This document shows positions 1,787-12,450 of a stretch of 21,814 bases of DNA, piece by piece. This DNA is from a virus, in the IMG/VR virus record IMGVR_UViG_3300017917_002283, positions 1-21,814 of that record. One strand, given 5' to 3'. The position numbers and the translations under genes were made by a program. The notes beneath the pieces are model-generated. The model had not been told where the DNA came from and did not search any database. It worked only from the letters and a program-made list of their open reading frames with translations. The number at the start of each line of letters is the position of its first letter. Positions within the stretch are counted from its first letter, which is position 1.

Positions 1787-2425
1787 ATGAACATCGCCGA
1801 CTTCCTGCCCCACTTGCTGCCCGATCTGCCGGGTTGCCCGGACAACATCGTCAAGCAGCAGTTCCTGTTCGGCGCCATTCAGTTCTGCACGGAAACGCAC
1901 GCCTGGAACGAGATCCAGGACCCGATCACGGTGATCGACAAGATCAACGAGTACGACGTCGAGGTCCCGACCGGCGCGCGCATCGTGGCTGTCAAGGATG
2001 TCTGGGCCAGCAATCGCAAGCTGCGCCCGGTCACCATGGATCAGCTCTTCGAGCGCATTCCCAACTGGCAGACCGCCGAAGGGTCCGAGCCCACCTACTA
2101 CAACGCCGCCACCGACTACACGACGATCCGCATCTACCCGAAGCCGCTCGACGCGCAAAAGGCCAAGCTCACACTGCGCGTGGCCTACGCGCCGACGCTG
2201 ACGGCAACCAGCATTCCGGACGAGATCGCGATCAAGTACTGGGACGGCCTGATCTCCGGCTGCAAGTCGCGCCTGATGGTCATCCCGGGCAAGTCGTGGA
2301 CCAACGCAGCCCTGGGTCAGTACCACAGGGCCATCTTCGATGACGCAGTGCTCAAGGCCAAGATCTCTCAGATCCACGACCGCGTGCAGGGCAGTGTCTC
2401 TGTGCGTCCGCACCCGTTCGCATAA
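1787..2425 (+). CDS. Second connector or tail-completion-like protein
   Basis: This 212-residue protein begins IADFLPHLLPDLPGCPDNIV and continues with a helical segment (about 22-40, QQFLFGAIQFCTETHAW). That resembles a conserved phage family lying next to adaptor genes: D-F-L-P-x-x-L-P-x-x-P-G-C-P followed by an amphipathic helix and a tryptophan. A beta-rich middle and a C-terminal helical region (about 145-190, WDGLISGCKSRLMVIPGKSW) are visible. No strong ribosome binding site precedes it, and the 3-nt gap from the upstream stop suggests coupled translation. A role in closing the portal or starting the tail is inferred from position and resemblance only. Confidence 0.6.
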   Translation: MNIADFLPHLLPDLPGCPDNIVKQQFLFGAIQFCTETHAWNEIQDPITVIDKINEYDVEVPTGARIVAVKDVWASNRKLRPVTMDQLFERIPNWQTAEGSEPTYYNAATDYTTIRIYPKPLDAQKAKLTLRVAYAPTLTATSIPDEIAIKYWDGLISGCKSRLMVIPGKSWTNAALGQYHRAIFDDAVLKAKISQIHDRVQGSVSVRPHPFA

Positions 2426-2434
2426 GAGGTTCCT

Positions 2435-2767
2435 ATGGCCGAGAAAATCAAACTGGTCCAGGGCGACACACGCCCAGCAATCGTGTGCACCATCACCGAC
2501 GAAAACAGTGGCGATCCGATTGCACTGACCGGCGCAACGCCAAGGCTCAAGTTCCGCGCCGCTGGCGAGACGACCATCATTGCCACGGTCACCGGCTCTG
2601 TTGTCGACGCCGCGGGTGGCAAATGCGTGTTCCACCCAGTCACCGCGCCGCAGATGCTGCAGGTCGACCCAGGCGACTACGAAGGCGAGATTGAAATCAC
2701 CTTCTCTGATGGCCAGGTTCAGACCGTTTACGACCTCCTCAAGTTCAAGGTCCGGGAGGACTTCTGA
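2435..2767 (+). CDS. BppU N-terminal-like baseplate/fibre anchor protein
   Basis: The product has 110 residues and looks like a single beta-sandwich domain. It opens with KLVQGDTRPAIVCTITDENS, then LTGATPRLKFR, and ends with a DYEGEIEITFSDGQVQTVYD strand set. This order (a Q-G-D start, Leu-x-Gly-A, then Y-x-x-E-I-x-x-x-F-x-D-G) resembles the N-terminal domain of phage baseplate upper proteins (BppU, DUF2479), which anchors receptor-binding fibres in gram-positive phages and also occurs as free-standing proteins elsewhere. AAGAGG upstream is a good ribosome binding site. The stop overlaps the next start (TGATG), so its product and the repeat protein that follows are probably made in step. Confidence 0.6.
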   Translation: MAEKIKLVQGDTRPAIVCTITDENSGDPIALTGATPRLKFRAAGETTIIATVTGSVVDAAGGKCVFHPVTAPQMLQVDPGDYEGEIEITFSDGQVQTVYDLLKFKVREDF

Positions 2768-3945
2768 TGCGTGTCGAGGTCAGTGGCACATCAGCCAGGG
2801 CCTCGGTAGAAGCCTCAAGGGCAAGGGCCAGCATCTCGGTCGTTTCGCCGATCTTCGGGACGCAATACGAGATCGCCGCGGCCGATGTCAGCTACATCGC
2901 CCTCAGGTCCGCGGTTCAGTATGCGCTGGCGTCAGCATCGATTGACTACCAGCTGGCCAAGGCTGTCGCGTTCGCTGACGGCTACGGCTTCAACAGGTTC
3001 ACCGAAGAGTACGTCGTCACCACCGACGGAGTGCAGCTTCTGCTGGGCAAGGAGTTCTCTGATTCGTTTTCAACGAGCGACGAGATTGTCCTTGAGTCCG
3101 AAAAGGGCCTGTCCGAGCAGCTTTTCATCGGTGACGTGTTCGCCGCCTACATCGTCTTCATCCGCAATCTGCAGGACAGCGTCCTGACTCAGGAGCTGAT
3201 CAGCAGCAGCATCTCGAAGCCGCTTGCCGACGTTGTCAGCAACATCACTGACGTGCTGCGGCCTCAGGCCACAAAAGGATTGCGCGATGCGATCCTGATG
3301 AACGACGCTCTTTCGAGAGCAATCACCAAAGCCCTCACAGACGCCGCTGTGCCGACTGACAAGCTGGCCCTGTCGCTGGCAAAGCTGGCCAAAGACCAGG
3401 CATCGATCACAGACTTCTCGACCAGGCTGGCCGGCAAAGCGCTTTTCGACCAGGCCGTGATGGCCGATGCCACGGCAAGGCAATTCATCAAGGCACTTGC
3501 TGATCAGCAGGCAGTCAGCGACAAAGCCGCCATCTCGGTGGAGAGGCTGCTGACAGACGCCGCGGCCGCCGCCGACTTCATTTCGTCAGCGGTCTCGCGC
3601 CTGTCGCAGGACTCCGTATCGACTGCGGATTCTTCGACCAGGTCCGCCCAAAAACTACTGAATGACGCGGCGCTCGCTCAGGACACGTTGGCATTCGCCA
3701 TCAGTCGACTGATCAGTGACGGCGTTGCCATGAGTGACAGCGCCGACCTCACCGACGGGCTGCTGACTCAGATCACAAAGTCATTCAACAACGTCGCCCT
3801 CGTTGGCGATACGCGCACGAGCAGTGTCAACAAGTTCGCGTCCGACTCTGCGTCAGCTGCCGACTCTGGCTCGCTGCGCAGTCAAGGCTACGTCGACATG
3901 TCCTACATCCTGGAGGACTACGTCGGGGATTCACGCGTTTTTTAA
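2767..3945 (+). CDS. Structural protein with fifteen approximately 18-residue repeats
   Basis: The function of this 392-residue protein is not recognised. From residue 95 to 373 it consists of about fifteen repeats, twelve of exactly 18 residues. The consensus is [K/R]-x-x-x-[D/N/E]-x5-[D/E]-x7, with Leu or Ala often at position 3; examples start KALTD, KALFD, KALAD, RLLTD and KLLND. Three copies are longer (20, 19 and 24 residues). The N-terminus (1-94) is unrelated, and the last 19 residues contain the tyrosine-rich segment SYILEDYVGDSRVF. The regular period suits a solenoid or an extended trimeric stalk in a virion appendage. Translation is coupled to the upstream gene by TGATG. No membrane segment or catalytic motif is visible. 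Confidence 0.75.
   Translation: MRVEVSGTSARASVEASRARASISVVSPIFGTQYEIAAADVSYIALRSAVQYALASASIDYQLAKAVAFADGYGFNRFTEEYVVTTDGVQLLLGKEFSDSFSTSDEIVLESEKGLSEQLFIGDVFAAYIVFIRNLQDSVLTQELISSSISKPLADVVSNITDVLRPQATKGLRDAILMNDALSRAITKALTDAAVPTDKLALSLAKLAKDQASITDFSTRLAGKALFDQAVMADATARQFIKALADQQAVSDKAAISVERLLTDAAAAADFISSAVSRLSQDSVSTADSSTRSAQKLLNDAALAQDTLAFAISRLISDGVAMSDSADLTDGLLTQITKSFNNVALVGDTRTSSVNKFASDSASAADSGSLRSQGYVDMSYILEDYVGDSRVF
3049..3885 (+). repeat. Protein-level tandem repeat, about 54 bp per unit
   Basis: The DNA encodes about fifteen diverged copies of an 18-residue unit. The copies are clear in the protein, with basic residue at 1, acidic at 5 and acidic at 11, but are too diverged in DNA to be a recent expansion. 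In order the units begin KEFSD, KGLSE, RNLQD, KPLAD, KGLRD, KALTD, KLAKD, KALFD, KALAD, RLLTD, RLSQD, KLLND, RLISD, KSFNN and KFASD. Confidence 0.85.
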
Positions 3946-3957
3946 CTGGAGATCACC

Positions 3958-4395
3958 ATGATCAACGAAAACATCAAAGTCACTGGCCAGGTTATGGTCG
4001 AGATCACCGGCCCCGACGGCCAGGTCAAAGAGCGCCGCGAGATCAAGAACCTCGTGGTTACCTCCGGCAAGACCTTCATTGCTGGCCGCATGGTGGGCAC
4101 GCCGACCGCAATGAGCCACATGGCCATCGGCTCGTCCAGCACGGCTGCAGCCAACGGCGACACCGCGCTGGGCGCCGAGCTTGGCCGCGTTGCTTTGGCC
4201 ACCAGCGGCTCGAGCGCCAACGTCGTGACCTACACGGCCAGCTTCCCCGCAGGCACCGGCACCGGCGCCGTTGTCGAGGCTGGCATCTTCAACGCATCCA
4301 CCGCTGGCACCATGCTGTGCCGCACCGTCTTCCCGGTGATCAACAAGGGCGTCGACGACGCCATGAGCATCACCTGGCAGATCACCGTCTCCTAA
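3958..4395 (+). CDS. Small beta-rich virion/tail protein
   Basis: This is a 145-residue protein with a good ribosome binding site (CTGGAG) 7 nt before the ATG. It begins with beta strands (IKVTGQVMVEITGPDGQVKE) and an N-L-V-V-T-x-G-K motif. It ends with a pattern (FPAGTGTGAVVEAGIFNAS, then RTVFPVINKGVDDAMSITWQ) that I recall from small structural proteins coded beside tail fibres in many phages. The order F-P-A-G-T-x-T-G, E-A-G-I-F, then K-x-x-D-x-x-x-I-T-W is the recognisable signature. It is probably a tail-fibre-associated or base structural protein. The specific function is unknown. Confidence 0.7.
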   Translation: MINENIKVTGQVMVEITGPDGQVKERREIKNLVVTSGKTFIAGRMVGTPTAMSHMAIGSSSTAAANGDTALGAELGRVALATSGSSANVVTYTASFPAGTGTGAVVEAGIFNASTAGTMLCRTVFPVINKGVDDAMSITWQITVS

Positions 4396-4476: not shown

Positions 4477-7059
4477 ATGGCTTCTCTCACCCTCCGTCTC
4501 GTCAAAGGCTCGCCGCTCACCAATGCTGAGCTGGATGCCAACTTCTCGAACCTGAACACTGATGTCGGCTCGCGCCTGCTCGCCTCGAGCAACCTGTCCG
4601 ACCTCGCAAACGCCACGACTGCGCGTTCAAACCTCGGGCTTGGGAACGTCGAGAACAAGTCGAGCGCCACGATCCGATCGGAGCTGACCAGCACCAACGT
4701 CACGACGGCGCTTGGCTACACGCCTCTGGCGCCGTCTGCTATTGGCAGCACCGTCCAGGCTTACGACGCCGATCTGGCCACGATTGCCGGGCTGACGCCT
4801 ACCGCGGACAACTTCATCGTCGGCAACGGCACCGCATGGGTGCTTGAGACTCCCGCACAGGCTCGCACGTCCCTGGGCCTGGGTTCACTGGCCACACTGA
4901 GCTCGATCAACAACAGCAACTGGTCTGGCACAGCCTTGGCCGTAGCCAATGGCGGCACGGGTGCAACCGACGCCGCAACAGCGCGCACAAACCTCGGCCT
5001 TGCCATCGGCACAAACGTGCAGGCCTGGGATGCTGACCTTGATGCGATTGCGGGTCTTGCTGGCACCAGTGGCTTCCTGAAGAAAACGGCCGCCAATACC
5101 TGGTCGCTCGACACAAACACCTACCTGACAGGTAACCAGAGCATTTCGCTCTCCGGAGATGCCACGGGTAGCGGCACGACCTCGATTGCCGTCACGCTCG
5201 CCAACAGCGGCGTCACGGCCGGCACATACACCAAGGTCACGGTTGACGCCAAGGGTCGCGTCACAACCGGCGCATCCCTGGCCTCTGCCGACTTGCCAAC
5301 CTACACCGGAACTCTCACGTCCAGCCAGGTGACCACTGCGCTGGGCTACACGCCGCTTTCCACCGGCGGCGGCACGGTCACCGGCAATCTGTCCGTCAAC
5401 GGCAACACAACCCTCGGAGACGCCTCCACCGACGCGATCACGCTGACTGGCACGGTCCAGCCGGGAGTGGTGATTTCTGGCTCTTCCACCTCCGACGCCT
5501 TGCGCATCACTCAAGCGGGCAGCGGCAATGCTTTGCTGGTAGAGGACAGCGCGAACCCCGATGCGACACCATTTGTGGTGACGGCAGACGGCAACGTGGG
5601 CATTGGCAACGCAGCGCCTACTGTTTTGCTGAATATGTATTCAGCGACCGGTGCAGTGGCGCAGTTAACCGGAGACTCAAATACCACCTTCACCATTCGC
5701 CGCGCATCGGATGACACCACTTCCGGAATCTTTGGTTTCAATAAACGCAGGGGGACGATTGCTTCTTCAACCATAGTTCAGGCCGGTGATGTTCTGGGAA
5801 CCCTTTCCTTTACTGGTTACGATGGTGTTTCTCAAAACATTCCGGGCGCCCAGATCACTGCTGCTGTAGACGGCACTCCCGGTACAAGCGACATGCCGGG
5901 CCGGTTGATGTTCAGCACCACGGCCGATGGCGCCGCTTCGTCAAAGGAGCGCATGCGCATTACCAGTGCAGGCAACGTGCTTGTTGGAACTACGACCAAC
6001 AGCAACAACTCGCTGCTTGTCGTCAACGGCACCATCAGCGAGACCGTTGGTTCGACTCAGTATTTGGTGGTCAGCCAGGCCGACATTGGCACAGAACCAA
6101 ACGACATTCCGCTGAACCAGTACCTCGGCTCGATGGCGTATCAGGACAACGCCGCGGTTAACATTGCCGGCGGCATTGCGTCACTGACCGCGCTGACTGT
6201 TGGCGGGCCGACGACGCTCAACGTCAACAGCTCTTCTGATGCTTTGCGCATCACTCAGGTTGGCAGTGGCAACGCTCTGTACATCGAGGACGTTGCGTCC
6301 GACTCCACGCCGTTTGTGGTCAGCTCCACGGGCGTTGTCGGCATCGGCACGACGACACCGGATAACGTCACCAGCGCAGGCATCGCCCTGGTGTCCAACA
6401 ACGGCTACTACCCGCAGCTCATCCAGCGCAACACGACTGCCGACGCAAACGCCTCGTACATCGGTCTCGAGAAGAGCCGCAACGGTGGCATCGTACAAAG
6501 CGGAGACATCATCGGCAACATTGTGTTCCGCGGCTTTGACGGCACTCAGTTCCTGCAGGCTGCTGCGATCTGGTCGCGTGTCGCCGCAACGCCCGGCACG
6601 AATGACATGCCTGGCGACCTGGTGTTTGGCACAACGCCAGATGGGGCGCCCGGCATCAGTGAGCGCTTTCGGATTGACCGCAACGGCGCAGCCCTAGCCG
6701 TAAGCAACACCGGCGGCCTGGGGTATGGCCCTGGCGCTGGCGGAGCTCAGACGCAAGGTTCCGGAAGTGGCAAAGCGACCGGCGTGACACTTAACGCGCC
6801 ATGCGGTCAGATCACAATGAATAACGCCTCCCTGGGTGGCGCCACGGCGGTTTCGTTCACGCTCGCCAACAGCATCATTGCCGCGACCGATGTGGTTAGC
6901 GTCACCATCAGCGGCGGCGCAACTGCTGGCGCTTACGTAGCTGCGGTCGATCAGGTGTCAGCCGGATCGTGCCGCATCAGTCTGCGAAACCTTACTGGCA
7001 GCGCACTCAGCGAGGCGGTTGTCATTAACTTTGCCGTTGTCAAGGCAGTAAGCGCCTAA
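4477..7059 (+). CDS. Long tail fibre protein
   Basis: This 860-residue fibre should bind the host surface. The N-terminus (LRLVKGSPLTNAELDANFSN, residues 6-25) is the common phage-fibre attachment signature L-T-N-A-E-x-D-x-N-F. Low-complexity fibre segments follow: NLSDLANATTARSNLGLG (39-56), two ALGYTPL copies (78-84 and 288-294), and a GDATGSGTTS...VTVDAKGRVTTG segment (about 227-265). Residues 337-505 and 586-745 are diverged copies of one unit. The end, from GYGPGAGG (749) to INFAVVKA, matches a C-terminal domain I recall from many fibres. No intramolecular chaperone domain is evident. The ribosome binding site is weak (AGGCACAGG). The neighbours are other surface proteins. Confidence 0.85.
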   Translation: MASLTLRLVKGSPLTNAELDANFSNLNTDVGSRLLASSNLSDLANATTARSNLGLGNVENKSSATIRSELTSTNVTTALGYTPLAPSAIGSTVQAYDADLATIAGLTPTADNFIVGNGTAWVLETPAQARTSLGLGSLATLSSINNSNWSGTALAVANGGTGATDAATARTNLGLAIGTNVQAWDADLDAIAGLAGTSGFLKKTAANTWSLDTNTYLTGNQSISLSGDATGSGTTSIAVTLANSGVTAGTYTKVTVDAKGRVTTGASLASADLPTYTGTLTSSQVTTALGYTPLSTGGGTVTGNLSVNGNTTLGDASTDAITLTGTVQPGVVISGSSTSDALRITQAGSGNALLVEDSANPDATPFVVTADGNVGIGNAAPTVLLNMYSATGAVAQLTGDSNTTFTIRRASDDTTSGIFGFNKRRGTIASSTIVQAGDVLGTLSFTGYDGVSQNIPGAQITAAVDGTPGTSDMPGRLMFSTTADGAASSKERMRITSAGNVLVGTTTNSNNSLLVVNGTISETVGSTQYLVVSQADIGTEPNDIPLNQYLGSMAYQDNAAVNIAGGIASLTALTVGGPTTLNVNSSSDALRITQVGSGNALYIEDVASDSTPFVVSSTGVVGIGTTTPDNVTSAGIALVSNNGYYPQLIQRNTTADANASYIGLEKSRNGGIVQSGDIIGNIVFRGFDGTQFLQAAAIWSRVAATPGTNDMPGDLVFGTTPDGAPGISERFRIDRNGAALAVSNTGGLGYGPGAGGAQTQGSGSGKATGVTLNAPCGQITMNNASLGGATAVSFTLANSIIAATDVVSVTISGGATAGAYVAAVDQVSAGSCRISLRNLTGSALSEAVVINFAVVKAVSA

Positions 7060-9574: not shown

Positions 9575-9621
9575 TATGTCACCAGGTCGGGTTGGGCGCC
9601 CGACGAACAGAAAGTAGCAGC

Positions 9622-10812
9622 ATGATTGTTGATGAAGGCCTCAAGCAATTCGCCACCGAGCGGCAAGCACAGTTCGTCGATGCGATGAACAAGCACGGCG
9701 GACTGCGCCCGGCAGCACGGGCCCTGGGCCTGAACGACAAAACCATTTCCAAGGCCATCAAGGCCCTCAAGCGCAAGGCCGAGATGCGCGGCTATGCGCC
9801 TGGCAGCGACTTCACCCGGCCCGTGCCTGAGATGTTCGTGGCCAAGGGCGTGTCGACCTACTACAACAAGGACGGCAAGCCGACCGGCCAGTGGGTCAAG
9901 GCCAGCCTGGACGAGCAAAAGCGCGTGCAGGCGATGTACGACGCGATTGCAGCGCTGTGCGACGAGGTGCCGCGTGTGGCGCCAGTTGTCGGCCCGAAGA
10001 TCGCCACGCCAGACCTGGCCACCGTCTACACCCTGACCGACTCGCACGTCGGCATGCTTTCCTGGCACCGAGAAACCGGCGAGGACTGGGATCTTGAGAT
10101 TGCCGAGCATGTTCTGACCGGCTGCTTCCAGGCCATGATCAACGCGTCTCCTGCGGCAGCTGTTGGCATCGTCAACCAGCTGGGCGACTTCCTGCACAGC
10201 GACGGACTGACGCCCGTCACACCGACCTCTGGCCACATCCTCGACCAGGATGGCCGCTTCAGCAAGGTCGTCGAGGTTGCGGTGCGCGTGCTGCGCTCGG
10301 TCATCGCAATGGCCCTGGCCAAACACGAGAAGGTCATTGTGCTCATGGCCGAGGGCAACCACGACATGGCCTCGAGCGTTTGGCTGCGCGTGCTGTTCCA
10401 GGCGCTGTTCGAAAACGAGCCGCGGGTCGAGGTCCTGGATTCGCCGCTGCCGTACTACTGCCTGCAGCACGGCAAGACCATGCTGGCCTTCCACCACGGC
10501 CACCTGAAAAAGAATGACCAGCTGCCGCTGTTGTTCGCCGCCCAGTTCCCGAAAATCTGGGGCGAAACCACGAAGCGCTACGTGCATACCGGCCACCGGC
10601 ATCACGTCGAAGAGAAAGAACACTCCGGTATTACTGTGATCCAGCACCCAACGCTCGCCGCTCGCGATGCGTACGCGGCACGTGGCGGCTGGGTGGCCGA
10701 GCGCCAGGTCACCAGCATCACCTACCACTCCGAGTTCGGCCAGGTCGCGCGTCACACCGTGACGCCGGAAATGATCAACACAGGTGCAACAAACGGTTGC
10801 ATCCGCGGATAA
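9622..10812 (+). CDS. Metallophosphoesterase with N-terminal helix-turn-helix
   Basis: The protein has 396 residues from the ATG at 9622; a TTG at 9592 would add ten residues but lies closer to the terminator. Residues about 10-52 form a helix-turn-helix region (AARALGLNDKTISKAIKALK) resembling terminase small subunits. The calcineurin-like metal-binding motifs follow in order: D140-S-H142, G188-D189-x-x-H192, G245-N-H247-D, H294, and G324-H325-x-H327. All key residues are present, so it should bind two metal ions and cleave a phosphoester, perhaps in DNA as SbcD-type nucleases do. The stop codon TAA is part of the -10 of the next promoter. The ribosome binding site is weak. It is an enzyme inside a structural block. 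Confidence 0.85.
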   Translation: MIVDEGLKQFATERQAQFVDAMNKHGGLRPAARALGLNDKTISKAIKALKRKAEMRGYAPGSDFTRPVPEMFVAKGVSTYYNKDGKPTGQWVKASLDEQKRVQAMYDAIAALCDEVPRVAPVVGPKIATPDLATVYTLTDSHVGMLSWHRETGEDWDLEIAEHVLTGCFQAMINASPAAAVGIVNQLGDFLHSDGLTPVTPTSGHILDQDGRFSKVVEVAVRVLRSVIAMALAKHEKVIVLMAEGNHDMASSVWLRVLFQALFENEPRVEVLDSPLPYYCLQHGKTMLAFHHGHLKKNDQLPLLFAAQFPKIWGETTKRYVHTGHRHHVEEKEHSGITVIQHPTLAARDAYAARGGWVAERQVTSITYHSEFGQVARHTVTPEMINTGATNGCIRG

Positions 10813-10824: not shown

Positions 10825-12450
10825 ATGGCAGCACTCGACATCAAGGCATTCGACGGCATTCGGCCCGTGTCCAGCCCGCTCCTGCTGGGTCACGCCGAAG
10901 CGCAAGTCGCCGAAAACGCAAACATGATTGCGGGCTCGCTGTCGCCGATCAGTGGCACGACGGTGCTCAAGGCGCTGACCAAGCCCACCGTGAACACCAT
11001 CTGGCGCTTTGGTAAGTCGAGCCTGGAGACGGAGTACTGGCTTGAGTTTGCCGGCCAGGTCGACGTCGTGGCCTCACCGCTGCCGACGGACATCTGGGAC
11101 CGCGTGTACTGGACCGATGGCGTCAAGCCGAAATACGGACCGAGCGCGATCGTGCTGTCCGGCTCGAGCTACCCGGGCGCCAGCTACGACCTTGGCATCC
11201 CGGCGCCCACCGAAATACCAACCGTCAGCGGCGCCGCCCCGACCGCGGCCACAACAACGGAATCCAGGACGATCGTCGTCACGTACGTGTCCGCCTACGG
11301 CGAGGAGGGCCCGCCTTCACCGCCGTCTGGCGTCGTCTCTCTCGACTCGGCCCAGGCTGCCACCTACAGCAACCTCGGAACTGCCCCGTCCGGCAGCTAC
11401 AACATCACGTCGAAAAGGATTTACCGATCGTCGACAGTGGGCTCGAGCGCAGAGTTTCAGTTCGTCGACGAGATCCCGGTTGCGCAGAGCAGCTACATCG
11501 ACACAAAAAGCCAGTCGGCCCTGGGCGAGGTGTTGCCAAGCGACCTCTGGGTTGCGCCGCCAGCCGGCTTGACGGGACTTCGCTTGACCGCTGCTGGTGC
11601 TGCAGTCGGATTTGTCGGCAATACGGTCTACATGTCGGAGCCAAACCTGCCGCATGCATGGCCGCATAAGTACCCAATCGACTTCCAAATCGTTGCCGTT
11701 GGAGTTACTCGCCAGTCGGTGATTGTGCTGACCAACAGCTACCCGTTTGCACTGAACGGCGTTGACCCGGCCGCGATGTCGCCGGAGCGTCTTGAGCTGC
11801 CGCAGTCCTGCGTCTCAAAGTCCTCGATGGTGGAGACCGGCGACGGCGTCATCTACGCCTCGCCAGACGGCTTGGTGGCCATTGGCTCGAGCGGCATCGA
11901 CATCGTGTCCAGGCGGCACTTTGGCCGCAAGCAGTGGCAAGAGCTCAACCCGAGCTCGATGCGCTCATTCCAGCATGACGGCCGCTACATCGCGCTGTAC
12001 CAGAAGATCGACGGCACGCGCGGCATGTTGATCTTTGATCCGACAGGGCAGGGCCCGGTCTTCACGACCAGCACGCTCAACGCCAGCCAGGCCATCACAG
12101 CCGGCTACTCGGACAACAGGACCGACACGCTGTACTTCGCCCAGGGCGGCAACATCGTCCGCTACAACGCGGGCAGCCCGCTCACGGCCACCTGGCGCAG
12201 CAAGCGCTACAGGCTGTCGGCGCCGACATCGTTCTCGGTGGCGGCAGTGGACGCCGAGGCATATCCAGTCACCCTGAAGGTCTACGCAGACGGAGCTCTC
12301 AAGGTGAACACAGTCGTCCAGAACGCGTCTCCATTCCGGATTGCCGGCGGATACCGGGCGGACGAATGGGAAGTGCAGGTTGAGACCTCAAACGAAGTCA
12401 CGAGGATTCGACTTGCATCCACCTACGGCGAGCTCAAGGCGCTGCCATAA
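10825..12450 (+). CDS. Propeller-like tail structural protein
   Basis: This 541-residue protein resembles a family I recall from phage tail regions. Residues about 126-200 contain a fibronectin-like segment with AYGEEGPPSPPSG. Further on come FVGNTVYMSEPNLPHAWPHK, then VIVLTNSYPFALNG, and DGVIYASPDGLVAIGSSG, which look like successive blades of a beta propeller (repeated x-G-x-x-Y-x-S/A-x-P). Such proteins form hub or nozzle structures at the tail in short-tailed phages, but the assignment here is inference. No ribosome binding site of good quality is visible; the ATG is 12 nt after the phosphoesterase stop. The genes for tail-tip proteins follow directly. Confidence 0.65.
   Translation: MAALDIKAFDGIRPVSSPLLLGHAEAQVAENANMIAGSLSPISGTTVLKALTKPTVNTIWRFGKSSLETEYWLEFAGQVDVVASPLPTDIWDRVYWTDGVKPKYGPSAIVLSGSSYPGASYDLGIPAPTEIPTVSGAAPTAATTTESRTIVVTYVSAYGEEGPPSPPSGVVSLDSAQAATYSNLGTAPSGSYNITSKRIYRSSTVGSSAEFQFVDEIPVAQSSYIDTKSQSALGEVLPSDLWVAPPAGLTGLRLTAAGAAVGFVGNTVYMSEPNLPHAWPHKYPIDFQIVAVGVTRQSVIVLTNSYPFALNGVDPAAMSPERLELPQSCVSKSSMVETGDGVIYASPDGLVAIGSSGIDIVSRRHFGRKQWQELNPSSMRSFQHDGRYIALYQKIDGTRGMLIFDPTGQGPVFTTSTLNASQAITAGYSDNRTDTLYFAQGGNIVRYNAGSPLTATWRSKRYRLSAPTSFSVAAVDAEAYPVTLKVYADGALKVNTVVQNASPFRIAGGYRADEWEVQVETSNEVTRIRLASTYGELKALP

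Follow-up and report, generated by a model that had tools for sequence, protein, structure and literature searches.

The 392-residue repeat protein encoded at 2767..3945 on the plus strand of the window (the whole 21,814-nucleotide stretch of viral DNA that was analysed) is probably the rope of a bead-and-rope fiber, resembling fiber I of phage GP4, on a GP4-like podophage. The protein carries an array of 18-residue repeats and a C-terminal tag. Its gene lies in a conserved cassette on a GP4-like backbone, and the next gene encodes a small protein whose predicted fold is comparable to that of GP4 gp80. The near-constant pairing of the repeat protein with this small bead protein makes it the probable string in a fiber built like beads on a string. 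In such a fiber, the rope chain would be extended and strand-like, leading away from the virion. The protein encoded at 3958-4395 would attach as dimers along the 18-residue units, with the tag at the C-terminus serving to anchor or cap the row of beads. The distal part would probably be the adhesin fiber (4477-7059), and the BppU_N-like protein (2435-2767) would probably join the rope to the neck or tail collar. Here we infer the contact between rope and bead, the extended state and polarity of the chain, and what the first and fourth genes of the cassette do.

This reading provides a testable role for a widespread family that has no Pfam entry. It also ties that repeat family to a small bead family, since the pairing is without exception in tag loci with room for a second gene (among the matches listed), and it offers an explanation for repetitive stretches that fail structure prediction, a puzzle stated in the excerpts of PMC13243795 drawn on here. 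The cassette of attachment protein, tagged repeat rope, bead and fiber is portable, a finding that the initial annotation of this DNA understated; its most informative parts, namely the C-terminal tag and the strict gp80-like bead neighbourhood, were missed there.

The repeat array and its C-terminal tag

The array occupies 2995..3885 on the plus strand (residues 77-373) and consists of 16 units of ~18 residues, 14 of which fit the pattern K/R1-D/E5-D/E11. These 14 occurrences in residues 77-373 compare with 0.44 on average, and never more than 4, across 5000 shuffles. When the 16 units are laid out by hand, position 1 is basic in 16/16, position 5 acidic in 15/16 and position 11 acidic in 15/16, while the spacing between units is exactly 18 in 12/15 cases (the other three are 20, 19 and 24). 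Autocorrelation over residues 91-375 peaks for Asp at lag 18 (z 12.5) and lag 36 (z 10.3), with sub-periods of 6, 12, 24 and 30, and for K/R at lag 18 (z 7.4). Residue identity peaks at 18, 36 and 54 with z ~7 (7.4 at lag 18). In addition, a unit profile trained on relatives only, with the window excluded, places 14 window units above the 99.9% shuffle level; this profile was seeded on K/R1, D/E5 and D/E11, so conservation at these three positions is by construction.

The initial annotation had described a regular 18-residue array of about fifteen units at 3049-3885, with a basic residue at 1 and acidic residues at 5 and 11, and both the regularity and the charge pattern hold up. Its end at 3885 stands, its start moves one unit earlier to 2995, and the estimate of about fifteen becomes 16 units by hand, 14 of them with the full pattern. 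The N-terminal region ahead of the array (residues 1-76, 2767..2994, plus strand) has no family match and is presumed to be the virion-proximal end.

At the DNA level, Tandem Repeats Finder detected no 54-nt array. A repeat that is present in the protein without a tandem array in the DNA is probably old and kept at the protein level. Searches of Pfam and NCBIfam with the repeat protein returned no family (the nearest Pfam entry was only TMP_N, E 0.57), in agreement with its earlier description as an unassigned protein of the structural cluster. A match to a characterised repeat family, on which the initial annotation let its own reading depend, was likewise absent from Pfam and NCBIfam for the window protein and, for solenoid families, from Pfam for 49 relatives. 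The closest family is phrog_12240 (E 2e-5), to which no function is assigned; over its final 60 residues the protein also has a weak match to phrog_384 'virion structural protein' (E 0.079). Searches of solved structures (PDB) with the window protein and a 49-row profile gave chance-level matches only and no rope chain of any relative. In the open-access full texts searched, tag and repeat strings occurred only in two unrelated papers, and the combination of '18-residue repeat', phage and tail fiber returned none.

The array ends in a C-terminal tag (residues 363-392, 3853..3942, plus strand), which closes with Tyr-x-x-Glu-Asp-Tyr-Val-Gly plus five residues and is kept in relatives. Its form is ...YxxEDYVGxxRxF, mostly 5-6 residues from the stop in relatives. 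A tblastn search of 50,697 phage records with the window protein and one relative (L034) gave no match, so relatives had to be sought via this tag; a related-locus search seeded with the window repeat protein alone also found none. Using a DNA pattern for Tyr-Phe-x-Glu-Asp-Tyr-Val-Gly, we found at least 115 tag-bearing ORFs of >60 aa in IMG/VR viral contigs. A recount without the length limit, for tags near the stop, also gave at least 115, of which 84 are non-redundant, 5'-complete proteins; a stricter tag pattern returned one locus. The residues of the search pattern (YF.EDYVG) are invariant by construction in all aligned rows except the window, but neither the tag's nearness to the stop nor the 18-residue period is forced by it. 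Among the matches listed, the tag lies at most 20 residues from the C-terminus in 111/115 ORFs, and the strongest Asp period is 18 in 83/111 tagged ORFs and 36 in 11 more.

Known families cover these relatives sparsely: phrog_12240 matches 13/49, phrog_384 matches 7/49, and Pfam (E 0.01) yields five families with one member each, none of them a solenoid. The number of scoring units ranges from 0 to 29 (median 9; 84 proteins among the matches listed), and its parity carries no signal across the 84 relatives (47 even, 37 odd). Some proteins, at loci L064 and L085 (also L009, L099 and L088), have an internal tag or tag-like end in addition to the C-terminal one, as if the tag unit had been duplicated.

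The bead protein and the cassette

The gene directly downstream (3958..4395, plus strand) encodes a 145-residue gp80-like bead protein. The only Pfam family matching the window bead is PF23140, 'Podophage GP4 fiber I protein gp80' (E 7.2e-4), at 20.3 bits and thus below the curated cut-off of 27. Across its relatives, 36/68 match PF23140 at E <=0.01 (best E 4.1e-5) and 10/68 match PF12571, a tail-collar fibre domain. Profile comparison with hhalign between the window bead family and GP4-type gp80 (a three-sequence profile) gave a probability of 2.5%, which is not significant.

Structure prediction was confident for the bead, whose AlphaFold2 model has pLDDT 87.7 and pTM 0.84. VIA-align superposes it on GP4 fiber I (8jou_a) with Z 7.7 and rmsd 2.8 over 106 residues, a score above unrelated rows and under Z 8, in the range that VIA-align calls common. 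Better scores were obtained for a tail protein of Haloferax tailed virus 1 (9h4p_BD, 'Baseplate hub', Z 10.9), Listeria phage A511 gp105 (6hhk_B, Z 9.9) and a staphylococcal phi812 arm segment (9fko_A, Z 9.6); T4 gp8 scored Z 6.3. Foldseek at E <=0.001 returned the Haloferax chain only, and 8jou_a is absent from its best 50 PDB rows. On our own reading of these models, the bead would belong to a wider gp8/arm-segment/gp80 class, and its tie to GP4 gp80 specifically rests more on context than on score. That the predicted fold recurs in a tail protein of a haloarchaeal virus, and in proteins of Listeria phage A511 and staphylococcal phage phi812, hints that a common bead may be used on many extended scaffolds.

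A neighbour profile was built from window positions 3958-4395 together with eight relatives, of which seven come from phage records. It places the bead gene immediately downstream of the tag protein in 106/106 loci with >600 nt downstream, and in 77/77 non-redundant tag loci (both among the matches listed). In these 106 listed loci the bead starts -4 to +66 nt from the stop of the tag protein (median 9), with the distance taken from the first position of the bead profile. Upstream, the window encodes a 110-residue BppU_N-like protein (2435..2767, plus strand), a candidate Ig-like attachment piece that matches PF10651 (E 3.9e-4; 20.6 bits, below the cut-off of 23.1) and phrog_1084 (E 1.4e-10). 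A BppU_N-like gene lies immediately upstream of the tag protein in 79/102 loci among the matches listed. After the bead, the window encodes a tail fiber (4477..7059, plus strand; phrog_18345 tail fiber, E 2e-40) with an N-terminal LTN-x-E-x-D-x-NF-x-NL motif, and the gene after the bead carries this motif (searched as D.NF.N) in 86/101 of the listed cases. We use three features to define a rope family here (a unit of 18 residues, the C-terminal tag and a gp80-like gene directly after it), and the window protein shows all three, as do its relatives among the matches listed.

Seeding the search in reverse, from the bead gene, kept 80 loci of at least 589. Among the matches listed, 56/78 upstream ORFs end in YF..DYVG and 51/78 have an 18-residue Asp score >=3; the 22/78 neighbours without the strict DYVG tag mostly close with other peptides, although several have 18-residue units or a near tag. 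Some bead neighbours (L185, L187, L196-L214) have other end peptides, for example of the LNETPMGAG, FNTSVLN and INGNQLN types. In bacterial genomes, a clear 18-residue rope neighbour was present at only 2 of 8 bead-like loci, one in Janthinobacterium (L215, with the tag) and one with another tag (L217). The other 6 are without, and distant relatives of the bead therefore do not always have the rope as a partner.

The order BppU_N-like protein, repeat protein, bead recurs in Achromobacter phage CF418P1 (with a short rope) and in Aeromonas phage phiA008, where a Gly-rich peptide takes the place of the tag at the end of the repeat protein; by our own reading, EBPR siphovirus 1 has the same order. 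In phages Simon, Achromobacter phage ART and BcepGomr, the protein after the tape measure ends in a few units plus a tag-like end, with the bead directly next. The Simon and BcepGomr proteins match phrog_384 (E 2.1e-66 and 1.6e-121, respectively), and full-length members of this family combine another N-terminal domain with few repeats and the tag. Tagged ORFs of >700 aa have the bead next in 9/9 cases among the matches listed, and the two that were scanned (L023 and L017) match baseplate-wedge families. Taken together, the long ORFs, the phrog_384 proteins and the BppU_N cases indicate that the first domain varies with virion type while tag and bead stay paired. None of 202 bead domain hits lies in an ORF that also encodes a rope, an arrangement that would have supported contact between the two.

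Conformation of the repeats

AlphaFold2, run on the repeat protein with 49 aligned relatives, gave a mean pLDDT of 39.8. The repeats themselves score ~30-36 and show no secondary structure, and two short strands at the tag (pLDDT 63-68) are the sole secondary structure in the model. This monomer prediction, one of the checks proposed by the initial annotation, is thus of low confidence; it is not proof of disorder, since a single chain was modelled, the repeat alignment is hard to register and the fold may depend on a partner. A statistical signal is available from the relatives only. In a pool of 69 of the 84 non-redundant relatives (201-699 aa), each trimmed by 80 residues at the N-terminus and 30 at the C-terminus, the small residues S, T, A, G and N are favoured at even lags from 2 to 20 (O/E 1.21-1.33) and avoided at odd lags (O/E 0.69-0.80). 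Judged from sequence, this even/odd alternation suggests that the repeat unit is an extended strand along its entire length.

A helix or coiled coil, in which 18 residues would make five helical turns, is not favoured because the relatives alternate even/odd and lack helical 3-4-7 peaks. Set against its dismissal, the window protein by itself is rich in Ala and shows no such alternation of hydrophobic residues: these are depleted at lag 2 (z -2.7) and enriched at lag 4 (z 2.3), which could fit a helix.

The initial annotation had instead read each repeat as one solenoid turn, possibly stacked through metal or salt bridges, which would make the protein a self-standing beta-solenoid shaft. The coils of left-handed beta-helices also have 18 residues, and the period of 18 comes with a hexad sub-period (Asp lags 6, 12 and 18); as both 18 and 6 are even, the strand alternation of the relatives also fits a beta-coil. 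We still consider such a shaft quite improbable. Neither the solenoid turns nor the proposed stacking is supported: the repeats are strandless in the low-confidence AlphaFold2 model, and Pfam (E 0.01) contains no solenoid or hexapeptide family matching the window protein or the 49 relatives. In addition, each unit keeps a Lys/Arg at a fixed position (in part owing to the seed), a residue not easily buried.

At the other extreme, the repeats may be a disordered entropic spacer that sets the reach between virion and fiber and binds nothing. The very low pLDDT throughout and the wide variation in unit number among the listed relatives are what such a spacer would show. Yet a fixed 18-residue register with conserved charges across distant phages is more constraint than a spacer needs, and the same bead family adjoins the repeat protein at every one of the listed tag loci with room, which leaves the spacer an unlikely explanation.

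The strand-like alternation in relatives would also suit a homotrimeric fiber shaft made of three repeat proteins, similar to a triple beta-spiral, with the tag as the trimerisation or attachment end. Triple beta-spirals use repeats of 15-18 residues. We regard this shaft as very unlikely: no fiber-shaft family was matched in Pfam, and the fold of the conserved partner is dimeric in GP4 according to the excerpts of PMC13243795 (10 identical chains in 8jou). An extended rope carrying beads remains our preferred reading of the array.

Relation to GP4 fiber I and other bead-bearing fibers

On sequence matches, the podophage backbone of the window is GP4-like. The window encodes a 212-residue homologue of GP4 gp81 (1787..2425, plus strand; 8jov_G, E 3.5e-20) and a 541-residue homologue (10825..12450, plus strand; E 2.1e-72) of the GP4 protein in 8jov_A, which we take to be the nozzle. 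A 2023 study by Zheng reportedly describes GP4 fiber I as an elongated rope protein that links five gp80 dimers; the entry 8JOU ('Fiber I and fiber-tail-adaptor of phage GP4') contains 10 identical gp80 chains. The window resembles the GP4 fiber I system in having a GP4-like nozzle, gp81 and a small gp80-like neighbour gene whose predicted fold may be comparable, but differs in that its rope has a C-terminal tag and its bead matches PF23140 weakly.

GP4-type phages likewise have a long repetitive gene beside gp80. Burkholderia phage JC1 encodes a homologue of GP4 gp80 (E 1e-57 against 8jou_a), and after it comes JC1_54, a repetitive protein of 291 aa (phrog_19041, 'virion structural protein'). 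The autocorrelation of residue identity in JC1_54 is strongest at lags 22 and 20. We propose that JC1_54 is the GP4-type rope. Its unit of ~20-22 residues contrasts with the 18-residue, Asp- and Lys-containing unit of the window, and the window's rope gene precedes the bead gene whereas JC1_54 follows gp80. As the repeats differ and no homology was seen, the two ropes may be analogous only. The N-terminus of JC1_54 (L134 6058-6933) has an LNETPIN motif similar to the alternative end peptides of some bead neighbours.

A more ambitious version of the bead-and-rope reading, which we put forward as doubtful, is that the array is a molecular ruler: one 18-residue unit would dock one bead protomer by strand addition, gene length would set bead number, and tag, rope and bead together would form a portable organelle, a string of beads that can be fitted to the collars of podophages, the tail tips of siphophages and the baseplate wedges of myophages. 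If so, the 16 window units would correspond to ~8 bead dimers. A hint on the ratio of units to beads comes from JC1_54, with ~11 units by our own reading versus the 10 gp80 chains in 8JOU. The distribution of the cassette suggests that the same bead string has moved between three tail types, and fiber reach could then evolve via repeat number.

Comparable modules occur in other phages. The siphophage LSH1 module gp34-gp35-gp36 is a co-inherited virion module in which an 8JOU_g-like dimer is combined with a protein of Ig fold and a payload (PMC13243795, in the excerpts drawn on here). It shares with the window the dimer, the Ig-fold protein and an unexplained stretch badly modelled by AlphaFold, located in the payload and suspected by its authors to be a repetitive motif; it differs in that the payload has a lyase-like domain (PMC13243795). 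In Slicko01, a relative that those authors name, we picked out the protein WGH49683 by its size and repeats rather than from their text. It has 1843 aa (L132 4570-10101), with a long stretch of 20-residue repeats in its C-terminal part, and may represent a further class of rope that lacks a recognised bead. Slicko01 was rejected as a second case of the cassette: the 20-residue repeat is present, but bead and BppU profiles gave no gp80-like or BppU-like match.

A chain of beads at a collar is also known from Anabaena phage A-1(L), whose neck fiber gp82-gp81-gp80 sits at a pentadecameric collar (PMC10966104); the GP4 collar is described as 15:12 (PMC10925440). The A-1(L) beads differ in being trimers arranged head to tail, and a rope protein is not described in the excerpts of PMC10966104 used here.

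Two further observations concern other genes. The tail gene cluster of the window contains a predicted DNA repair exonuclease gene (9592-10812; phrog_704, E 4e-123), for which PADLOC gave no defence match. In Aeromonas phage phiARM81mr, a virion structural gene (L137 10030-13461) is followed shortly after by a retron-type reverse transcriptase, a pattern resembling that of a diversity-generating retroelement with its target.
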